NCBI RefSeq assembly: GCF_030684215.1
Contig: NZ_JAUXOV010000063.1
Location: 1 to 64,000, forward strand
Length of the DNA: 64,000 bases
Reading direction: 5' to 3'
DNA from: Pseudotabrizicola sp.
GTDB lineage: Bacteria; Pseudomonadota; Alphaproteobacteria; Rhodobacterales; Rhodobacteraceae
Of the stretch, positions 27,623 through 60,897 are shown piece after piece. The position numbers and the translations under genes were made by a program. Each line of letters begins with the position of its first letter. Positions within the stretch are counted from its first letter, which is position 1. The notes under the pieces are model-generated. The model searched no databases and had not been told where the DNA came from. It saw nothing but the letters and a program-made list of their open reading frames with translations.

Positions 27623-27680
27623 GAGTATTTGGCAAAGCAGCAAGTCAACAGCGTTGGGAATTGCTGCTTTTAAAATACTC
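27623..27680. repeat. Stem-loop repeat, GAGTATTT...AAGCAGCAA family
   Basis: gagtatttggcaaagcagcaa - loop - ttgctgcttttaaaatactc. Confidence 0.7.
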
Positions 27681-35753: not shown

Positions 35754-35775
35754 GAGTATTTTTGCCAAGATGAAA
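35754..35775. repeat. Single arm of the GAGTATTT dispersed repeat
   Basis: gagtatttttgccaagatgaaa, similar to arms at 27623 and 45671. Confidence 0.45.
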
Positions 35776-43548: not shown

Positions 43549-43630
43549 CGGCGACGCCCCCCACGTCGCGGATAGAACAGACGCCCCAGCCCTGCCGGTC
43601 TTTGATCCTCGCAAGCGACAGGGGGCGGAT

Positions 43631-44521
43631 ATGCCATATGGAACAGGTGTAAAACTGGTGCTGCTGGCAGCGCTGCTGTGGTCGCTGAACGGACTGCTGA
43701 TCCGGCAGATTGATCAGGCGGGCACATGGGCCGTGCTGTTCTGGCGTTCTGCCGGAATGATCCCGGTGCTGCTGGCGGTGATTGCGTGGCGGTCGGGCGG
43801 CGTGGTGGCACCGCTGCGCCGGGTCGGATGGTCGGGGCTGATCGGCGGGCTTGGCCTTGTGCTGGCCTTTGGCGGCGCTATCTTTGCCTTTCAGGCGACA
43901 ACGGTGGCCAATGCGGTGTTCCTGTTTTCCGCCTCGCCGTTTCTGGCCGCGATCCTTGGCTGGCTGATCTTGCGCGAATCCGTGCGCCCGGCGACATGGG
44001 CCGCAATTGCGCTGGCCGGGGTGGGCATGTTCGTGATGGTGCGCGAAGGGCTTGCAGCGGGGGCGATGGCGGGCAATGTCGCCGCACTTGTGTCGGCACT
44101 GGGGTTTGCCAGCTTTACCATCGCTCTGCGCTGGGGCCGCTTGGCCGACATGCTGCCTGCCGTGGTGCTGGGCGGTCTGCTTTCCATGCTGGCGGCGGCA
44201 GCGGTTCTGGCCGTGCAGGGTCAGGCGCTTTGGGTGCCCGCCCGCGATATAGCAATATCGCTGGCAATGGGCGCAGTCATTCTGGCGACCGGGATGGCAC
44301 TTTACACCGCAGGCAGCCGGGTGATTCCGGCAGCAGAGCTGACACTGCTGTCGATGGTCGAGGTGCTGCTCGCCCCGGTCTGGGTGTTTCTGGCATTGGG
44401 CGAAACCGCCTCACGCGGGACCTTTGCCGGGGGCGCTGTTCTGATGGCGGCGGTGGCGCTCAACGCGCTGTCAGGCGCCCGTCAGATGCGCCGCGGGCCC
44501 GTGCTTGGCGTCGGACGCTGA
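43631..44521 (+). CDS. DMT/EamA-family transporter
   Basis: Two EamA-like halves, ~10 TM segments; start chosen at MPYGTGVKLVLLAALLWSLNGLLIR. Confidence 0.84.
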   Translation: MPYGTGVKLVLLAALLWSLNGLLIRQIDQAGTWAVLFWRSAGMIPVLLAVIAWRSGGVVAPLRRVGWSGLIGGLGLVLAFGGAIFAFQATTVANAVFLFSASPFLAAILGWLILRESVRPATWAAIALAGVGMFVMVREGLAAGAMAGNVAALVSALGFASFTIALRWGRLADMLPAVVLGGLLSMLAAAAVLAVQGQALWVPARDIAISLAMGAVILATGMALYTAGSRVIPAAELTLLSMVEVLLAPVWVFLALGETASRGTFAGGAVLMAAVALNALSGARQMRRGPVLGVGR

Positions 44522-44588
44522 CGCACGGCCCCTTTACCACACACCCCCAAAGCCGCTAAGCAACTCAGAACAGGGTTTGGGGACGATT

Positions 44589-45593
44589 ATGACAGACAAG
44601 GTTCTGATCACAGGCGCGGCCGGGTTCATCGGTTTTCATCTGGCCCGCCGCCTGCTTGCGGATGGTTGGCATGTGACCGGTTTTGACGGCATGACCAACT
44701 ATTACGACCCGGCGCTGAAACAGGCGCGGCTGGATATTCTGCAAGCCCAGCAGGGATTTGCCTTTGAACTCGGCATGCTGGAAGACCCCGGCCGCCTGAC
44801 CACCCTTGCCGAAGCCCTGCGCCCCGATGTGATCATCCACCTCGCGGCACAGGCCGGGGTGCGCTATTCCATCGATGAGCCGCGGTCCTATGTGCAGTCA
44901 AACCTGATCGGCACACATGAGGTGCTCGAAGCCGCAAGGGCGCATCCGCCAAAGCATCTGTTGATGGCATCCACCTCGTCAGCCTACGGCGCCAATACCA
45001 TGATGCCCTATGCCGAGACAGATCAGGCCACCCATCCGATGAGCTTTTATGCCGCGACCAAAATCGCCAATGAGGCAATGGCCCACAGCTATGCCCATCT
45101 TTTCGGCCTGCCGACCACGATGTTCCGGTTTTTCACGGTCTATGGACCCTGGGGCCGCCCGGACATGGCGCTGTTCAAATTCACCAAAGCGATTCTGAAC
45201 GGTGACCCGATTGACGTCTACAACCACGGCAATATGCAACGCGATTTCACCTATGTCGAAGATCTGGTCGAAGGGATCAGCCGACTGATCGCTGCTGCGC
45301 CCGGAACCGCAAAGGCCGGACCCAGCGACAGCCTGTCCCCTGTCGCTCCGTTCCGTGTGGTCAATATCGGCAATGGTGCACCCGAACAGCTGACCGATTT
45401 CATCAAGGCGATTGAAGCAGCCACGGGACGCGAGGCACGCCAGAACCTGTTACCGATGCAACCCGGCGACGTGCCCGCCACATGGGCCGATGCGACGCTG
45501 ATCAACGCATTGGTCGGCCCCCTGCCCCGCACCGATATTCGCAACGGGGTCGCCCGGTTTGTCGACTGGTATCGCGGCTGGAACGCTAGATAA
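44589..45593 (+). CDS. NAD-dependent epimerase (UDP-glucuronate 4-epimerase-like)
   Basis: VLITGAAGFIGFHLARRLLADGWHVTGFDGMTNYYDPALKQARL; SSAYGANTMMPYAETDQATHPMSFYAATKIANE. Confidence 0.88.
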   Translation: MTDKVLITGAAGFIGFHLARRLLADGWHVTGFDGMTNYYDPALKQARLDILQAQQGFAFELGMLEDPGRLTTLAEALRPDVIIHLAAQAGVRYSIDEPRSYVQSNLIGTHEVLEAARAHPPKHLLMASTSSAYGANTMMPYAETDQATHPMSFYAATKIANEAMAHSYAHLFGLPTTMFRFFTVYGPWGRPDMALFKFTKAILNGDPIDVYNHGNMQRDFTYVEDLVEGISRLIAAAPGTAKAGPSDSLSPVAPFRVVNIGNGAPEQLTDFIKAIEAATGREARQNLLPMQPGDVPATWADATLINALVGPLPRTDIRNGVARFVDWYRGWNAR

Positions 45594-45596
45594 GCG

Positions 45597-45827
45597 GAGC
45601 GGCTACGCCGCATTTTTTGGTCTCGGCTTTGGCCTGCGGCCAACCGCCTCGGATTATGCGCTCCGCGCGGGAGTATTTGCCAAGCAGCAAACCATCTAAA
45701 AATTGCTGCTTTGCAAATACTCTGGGGTGAGCCGCCATTCTTTGGGCGGCGAGGGGCAACGCCCCTCTGCCCGAGGCGGTTGGCCGTAGGCCAGAGCCGA
45801 GAGATAAACACCGCGGCGCAGCCGCTC
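45597..45827. repeat. Nested inverted-repeat element between convergent genes
   Basis: Arms: 45597-45611/45813-45827 (15 bp, 1 mismatch); 45621-45652/45771-45802 (32 bp, 2 mismatches); 45671-45690/45703-45722 (20 bp, 1 mismatch); small hairpin gaggggcaacgcccctc at 45751-45767. Confidence 0.85.
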
Positions 45828-45840
45828 TATTTTTTACCCG

Positions 45841-46830
45841 TCAAAGTTGGCCTGGCACCACTTGGTCAGGCGGACGGTGTCCGTCGGCAAAGGTCTTGAT
45901 ATTGATAATGACCTTTTCGCCCATTTCGATCCGGCCTTCCAGCGTGGCACTGCCCATATGGGGCAACAGTACTACATTGGGCAATTCGCGCAGGCGCGGA
46001 TTCACCTCGTGGCCATGTTCGAACACATCAAGCCCAGCGCCGCCCAGTTCCCCGGCGCGCAGGCCGCGGGTCAGGGCGTTTTCGTCTATCACCTCGCCGC
46101 GTGAGGTGTTCACAATCACCGCCGTTGGTTTCATCAGCTTTAGCCGTCGCGCGTTCATCAGGTGATAGGTCGAGGGCGTATGCGGGCAGTTGATGGACAC
46201 GATGTCCATGCGGCTGACCATCTGGTCTAGACTCTCCCACCATGTGGCATCCAGATCGGCCTCTATCTCCGGGCGCAGGCGTTTACGGTTGTTGTAATGC
46301 ACCTGCATGCCAAAGGCGCGGGCGCGGCGTGCGACAGCCTGACCGATCCGGCCCATGCCGAGGATGCCCAGCCGCTTGCCACCAAGTCGCCCACCCATAA
46401 AGGCGGTTGGGGCCCATCCCTGCCATTCGCCGGCTTGCATCACCGACAGGCCTTCGGGAATACGGCGGGTGACGGCCATGATCAGGGCAAGGGTCATATC
46501 GGCGGTGTCTTCGGTGACCACGCCAGGTGTGTTTGAGACCAGTATTCCGCGTTGGCGGGCGGTGGCTACGTCGATGTGGTCTACCCCTGCGCCATAATTG
46601 GCAATCAGTTTCAGCTTCTCACCGGCCTGTCCTATCAGGCCCGCATCAATCTGATCTGTCACACAAGGCACCAGCACATCGGCGCGGCGCATCGCATTTG
46701 CCAGCTCGTCGCGCGACATTTTGGTGTCGGGGTCGCGCAGGTCGACATCGAACAATTCCTTCATCCGGGTTTCCACCGGTTCGGGCAACCGTCGCGTGAC
46801 TACAACACTCAGCCGTTGTGCGGGCATCAT
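45841..46830 (-). CDS. 2-hydroxyacid dehydrogenase (glyoxylate reductase-like)
   Basis: GGRLGGKRLGILGMGRIGQAVARRARAFGMQVHYNNR; INCPHTPSTYHLMNARRLKLMKPTAVIVNTSRGEVIDENAL; start at MMPAQR. Confidence 0.87.
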   Translation of the reverse strand: MMPAQRLSVVVTRRLPEPVETRMKELFDVDLRDPDTKMSRDELANAMRRADVLVPCVTDQIDAGLIGQAGEKLKLIANYGAGVDHIDVATARQRGILVSNTPGVVTEDTADMTLALIMAVTRRIPEGLSVMQAGEWQGWAPTAFMGGRLGGKRLGILGMGRIGQAVARRARAFGMQVHYNNRKRLRPEIEADLDATWWESLDQMVSRMDIVSINCPHTPSTYHLMNARRLKLMKPTAVIVNTSRGEVIDENALTRGLRAGELGGAGLDVFEHGHEVNPRLRELPNVVLLPHMGSATLEGRIEMGEKVIINIKTFADGHRPPDQVVPGQL

Positions 46831-60830: not shown

Positions 60831-60897
60831 ATTGCTGCTTTCAAAATACTCTCGGGGTAACTCAGCGGTTTCGCCATCGGTTCAAGAAACCGCTGAG
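60831..60897. repeat. Arm of GAGTATTT/AAGCAGCAA repeat plus adjacent 11 bp hairpin
   Basis: attgctgctttcaaaatactc (60831-60851) and ctcagcggttt (60861-60871)/aaaccgctgag (60887-60897). Confidence 0.65.

Follow-up and report, generated by a model that had tools for sequence, protein, structure and literature searches.

The nested palindrome at positions 45597–45827 of the analysed window (the whole 64,000-nucleotide stretch of Pseudotabrizicola sp. DNA) is, as a whole, probably best explained as two strand-specific 3'-end composites, one for each of two converging genes, standing back to back. In four species, the inner core of the palindrome is turned around, while the flanking genes and the A modules next to them keep their orientation. 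The hairpin-box unit of the core is a high-copy dispersed element that is found family-wide in Rhodobacteraceae.

Structure of the palindrome and its modules

As the first-pass annotation had proposed, the palindrome lay between two convergent genes: an NAD-dependent epimerase/dehydratase gene on the left (44588–45593, plus strand; ORF, PF01370, E = 2.5e-54) and a D-isomer specific 2-hydroxyacid dehydrogenase gene on the right (45841–46776, minus strand; PF02826, E = 2.5e-58). None of the three genes inspected near the palindrome was a recombinase. The three nested inverted repeats that had been described were found in place, with outer arms of 15 bp (45597–45611 and 45813–45827; 1 mismatch), middle arms of 32 bp (45621–45652 and 45771–45802, inverted repeat I1; 2 mismatches), and inner arms of 20 bp (45671–45690 and 45703–45722; 1 mismatch). 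The self-complementarity of 45597–45827 was 78, against 5.2 ± 8.4 (maximum 34) in 300 dinucleotide shuffles, which is far above chance level. RNA fold prediction gave z values of −15.1 and −14.1 for the two strands. Rfam covariance models at gathering score had no matches in the 64-kb window.

The module order outward from each stop codon was A, B, a hairpin C or D, and then the box GAGTATTTnnnAAGCAGCAA; the palindrome of the window reads A-B-C-box facing box-D-B-A. On the plus strand, the terminator scan located the left module A at 45597–45618, with a GCGGC-TAC-GCCGC hairpin and then ATTTTTT (GCGGCTACGCCGC followed by ATTTTTT at 45599–45618), similar to an intrinsic terminator. It was followed by the left arm of module B (45621–45652), a 32-bp hairpin module (TCTCGGC..TGGCCTGCGGCCA..GCCTCGG) given by inverted repeat I1; by hairpin C (GCGC-TCC-GCGC, 45658–45668), immediately ahead of the left box; and by the left box itself (GAGTATTTGCCAAGCAGCAA, 45671–45690), which was defined from the inverted repeat and the genomic copies. 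A centre spacer without strand (45691–45702) separated the two head-to-head boxes. On the minus strand, the right box (GAGTATTTGCAAAGCAGCAA, 45703–45722), sense for the dehydrogenase, had immediately ahead of it the hairpin set D (GCCGCC..GGCGGC and GAGGGGCGTTGCCCCTC, 45723–45767), defined from the sequence and its orthologues. The right arm of module B (45771–45802, inverted repeat I1) and the right module A (45803–45827, terminator scan; GCGGC-TGC-GCCGC hairpin) completed this half. The extra hairpin noticed earlier in the right half was confirmed as GAGGGGCAACGCCCCTC at 45751–45767.

Module A, a GC hairpin with a T-rich tail, is likely to be an intrinsic terminator. The left module A had a GC-rich hairpin and a U-run downstream of its gene and in sense orientation. 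Terminator-like stems with T-runs had been ascribed to both outer arms; this was correct for the left arm, but the minus-strand T-run of the right arm was degenerate (GGTGTTTATC). The stem type of the left module A differed among orthologues and pairing was retained. A third plus-strand terminator-like hairpin (GCGGCGCAGCCGC followed by TCTATTTTTT) was seen at the far edge of the palindrome (45813–45835).

Hairpin C occurred as GCGC-TCC-GCGC or CGCC-TCC-GGCG, D being a longer hairpin set, and the hairpin-box units read GCGCTCCGCGCGG or CGCCTCCGGCGG, then GAGTATTT. The C stem had two main types, in which the inner pairs swapped C-G and G-C in concert. It was fully paired in 91 of 138 copies, compared with 38 expected after shuffling and re-dealing of the 3' arms; this covariation indicated that the C hairpin is maintained.

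When the 251-bp region was compared with its own genome, 51 partial matches were obtained, and placing them side by side showed a modular grammar. The two A-B arms were 84% alike, and each was 85–86% alike to a copy at C32:64 kb. Because the arms were no more similar to each other than to this copy, they were regarded as family members and not as a recent duplication. Module B had three further copies in the genome (2–5 copies per genome overall), so the 32-bp arm has relatives. The composite of A, B, hairpin and box was also present one-sided at other gene ends, and most hairpin-box units were single. The earlier view that the structure is built from dispersed repeats was borne out by the hairpin-box and B copies elsewhere in the genome; the insertion of one repeat into another, also suggested, was not, since each half is an ordered composite that occurs one-sided as well.

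The innermost repeat had been noted again at 27.6 kb. The same box is indeed present there, and the site proved to be itself a head-to-head pair, the second of the window (27623–27680; boxes at 27623 on the plus and 27680 on the minus strand), with D on the left, C on the right, and no B arms. Further single boxes of the window lay at gene 3' ends at 35754 (plus strand), with the alternative tail CCAAGATGAA, and at 60844 (minus strand). Boxes with the other tails GAGTATTTTTGCCAAGATGAA and GGATATTTGAAAACAGAAAATG were found in equivalent gene-end positions.

Inversion of the core and probable loss of the structure in related genomes

Of 16 congeneric genomes, its own included, 9 had the full nested palindrome at the 3' end of the dehydrogenase gene, and each full copy had one C side and one D side. 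Hairpin C lay toward the left gene in G000, G001, G005, G006, and G014, and toward the right gene in G002, G003, G012, and G015. Comparison of direct and inverted core alignments showed that all 36 pairwise comparisons were consistent with a true inversion. For G001 and G003, the core alignment score rose from 32.5 in direct to 107.5 in inverted orientation, and yet these two genomes had left A modules of one type that had not moved. The single-gene tree was poorly resolved; the five-gene tree gave supported branches, which forced at least two orientation changes. In the stretch examined in G005, the EamA transporter and epimerase genes (window 43630–45593) had no counterpart, and the palindrome still adjoined the dehydrogenase (L096/L215–L219).

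At two control loci, orthologous box pairs without inverted B arms did not flip. At the plsY/glutamate-cysteine-ligase-like locus (names assigned by inspecting translations), where B is one-sided, the order was C-left and D-right in 7/7 species with the pair. At the 27.6-kb locus, which is without B arms, orientation was constant in the relatives. In G003, both B arms of the palindrome carried GGCGTGCCGCC, and the two other genomic B copies retained GGCCTGCGGCC; because GGCGTGCCGCC was absent from these two copies, the B arms of G003 were homogenised locally.

Template switching between inverted repeats yields arm homogenisation and spacer inversion (PMC8604942), and the core was probably turned by template switching between the repeated arms. 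The inverted B arms flanking the core would permit template switching between them during replication; the B arms would thereby be homogenised and the core inverted between species, with neither gene disturbed. The locus resembles described quasipalindrome template switching (PMC8604942, PMC7202029) in showing both outcomes at inverted repeats, but differs in having a functional-looking core of ~120 bp between 32-bp arms and in having been seen between bacterial species. The spacers in the published cases are far shorter (PMC8604942), so that homologous or other recombination between the arms is a possible alternative cause of the flipped core.

Partial forms of the structure were found at the dehydrogenase locus in G013 and G004. 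Empty sites, for which the first-pass annotation had proposed a comparison, exist in G009 (25 bp) and G011 (32 bp), the latter retaining half of the right A module. G003, the nearest relative of G009 on the five-gene tree, carries the palindrome, so the absence in G009 is best read as a loss; the tree neighbours of G011 also carry it. The structure would thus be lost through deletion as well as turned, and we infer that the absences represent such losses.

Gene-end placement and putative function of the hairpin-box unit

An 864-kb sample of its own genome contained 33 full boxes, of which 28 came after a gene on the same strand and none was inside an ORF. Across nine congeneric genomes (1.66 Mb), the intergenic hairpin-box octamers were placed in convergent (52), codirectional sense (43), codirectional antisense (8), and divergent (6) positions, with the genes called by a simple home-made codon-usage finder, so that individual contexts are possibly wrong. 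For the codirectional gaps, the ratio of 43:8 between sense and antisense gave a binomial p of 7e-7. Between the boxes and canonical T-run terminators, neither replacement nor co-occurrence was significant.

From the sense placement, the hairpin covariation and the enrichment at convergent gene ends, the likeliest role of the hairpin-box unit is transcription termination, or the formation or protection of transcript 3' ends. Several features count against this, including the non-significant relation of the boxes to T-run terminators. There was no U-run directly after C or D, where G0-2-GAGTATTT forms a weak tract, and the weak post-hairpin U-tract GAGUAUUU speaks against a terminator; at the present locus, moreover, transcription would have to pass terminator A before reaching the box, so that little transcript is expected there. 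The box was also considered as an RNase E site and rejected: its AUUU is at most compatible with cleavage, and the RNase E sites of R. sphaeroides are AU-enriched with only ~2% in 3' UTRs (PMC6238624).

Of 121 Rhodobacteraceae genera, 87 contained the core pattern CCTCCGGCGGGRRTATTT (C hairpin and box start), with up to 83 copies per genome, whereas all 141 other alphaproteobacterial genomes were without it; the reversed-pattern control was empty in all genomes searched. The tail after TATTT was uniform within a genome and differed between genomes (AAGCAGCAA, AAGCTGCAA, AAGGTGCAA, GACACATGATG, and CACGATGAA). An analysis of k-mers enriched at gene ends gave too much noise for defining these dialects. 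In G094 (L264–L270), there were many near-uniform hairpin-inside inverted pairs (CATCATGTGTCnnnAAATATCCCCGCCGGAGGC...GCCTCCGGCGGGGATATTTnnnGACACATGATG) with 33-bp arms, and the variable triplet matched within each pair. The papers searched for the sequence and for extragenic palindromes of Rhodobacteraceae contained no description of the element.

More tentatively, the unit might be an undescribed family-specific 3'-end signal, made up of a hairpin, GGAGTATTT/GGGATATTT and a genome-specific tail, and recognised by a factor that acts in trans and evolves together with the tail dialect. Such a signal could flip repeatedly and cost-free at loci with inverted flanking modules, since it would be bidirectional.

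Bidirectional intrinsic terminators also stand between convergent stop codons, with GC hairpins and T-rich tails on both strands; here, however, there are two multi-module composites of ~100 bp each, and the box in which each ends is conserved in sequence and has a poor U-tract. The earlier statement that the structure exceeds an ordinary bidirectional terminator holds.

Alternative explanations and significance of the locus

Alternatively, the whole palindrome could have arisen by a single insertion, in either orientation, of a MITE- or REPIN-like non-autonomous mobile element whose terminal inverted repeats are B or A. The high-copy inverted pairs across the family, the recurrence of near-uniform pairs with 33-bp arms in G094, and the empty sites in relatives agree with this explanation. 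It is nevertheless unlikely, as the core flips while the A modules stay with their genes, the units are mostly single, and B has just 2–5 copies per genome. The half module in G011 and its palindrome-bearing tree neighbours fit loss. The Y1 transposase was absent too: a RAYT/Tnp_REP (PF01797) profile search of the own genome gave no matches, while control profiles matched.

The units share with REP/BIME and REPIN elements their short extragenic hairpins, dispersed at gene 3' ends singly or in inverted pairs, in many copies and with species-specific sequence. They differ from these and their RAYT partners in the conserved 3' box, and the GTAG/GGAG head 5' of the hairpin was not found in the units in this orientation. 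REP-like repeats (GTAGGGCGGGGTTCACCCCGCC) were seen in a convergent gap at L069:8507–8725 (G000:C79:92507–92725), which also holds a stretch resembling a RAYT gene end; the PF01797 protein was not found in that genome.

It is quite improbable that selection keeps the long palindrome itself, as a cruciform, an RNase III substrate, or a barrier between converging polymerases. Very stable folds are predicted for both strands, the structure is retained in 9 species, and the box pairs remain complementary as their sequence changes between species. However, the first-pass suggestion of selection for palindromy is not borne out, as left and right types differ while the local hairpins are kept (module A in G001 and G003; module B in G002 and G015). 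Moreover, C faces D and not C, and the palindrome is absent in two species and partial in two. The palindromy is better explained by the presence of like modules on converging genes together with template switching between the arms.

A similarly doubtful explanation is that the box is a motif recognised at the level of DNA, such as an uptake sequence or a nucleoid-protein site, with species dialects, and that gene ends merely tolerate it. The uniformity of the tail within a genome and its difference between species would suit such a motif. Neisserial DNA uptake sequences are likewise short motifs with dialects, and their inverted pairs 3' of genes act as terminators (PMC3630211). Uptake sequences are, however, also common within genes, whereas the box was intergenic only; it is bipartite and ~20 bp long, has its own hairpin directly ahead of it, and shows a strong strand preference for gene 3' ends.

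Long palindromes are known to give rise to assembly errors, but an artefact can practically be dismissed here, because orthologous palindromes with diverged arms upheld the structure in eight other, independent assemblies.

The locus is a clean natural example in which arms were homogenised and the core was inverted between species of bacteria, and the non-flipping control loci without inverted arms make the mechanism directly testable. A gene-end element carried by the majority of genera in a large, well-studied family is apparently absent both from Rfam and from the papers searched, and the tails, being genome-specific, suggest that it has a dedicated reader.
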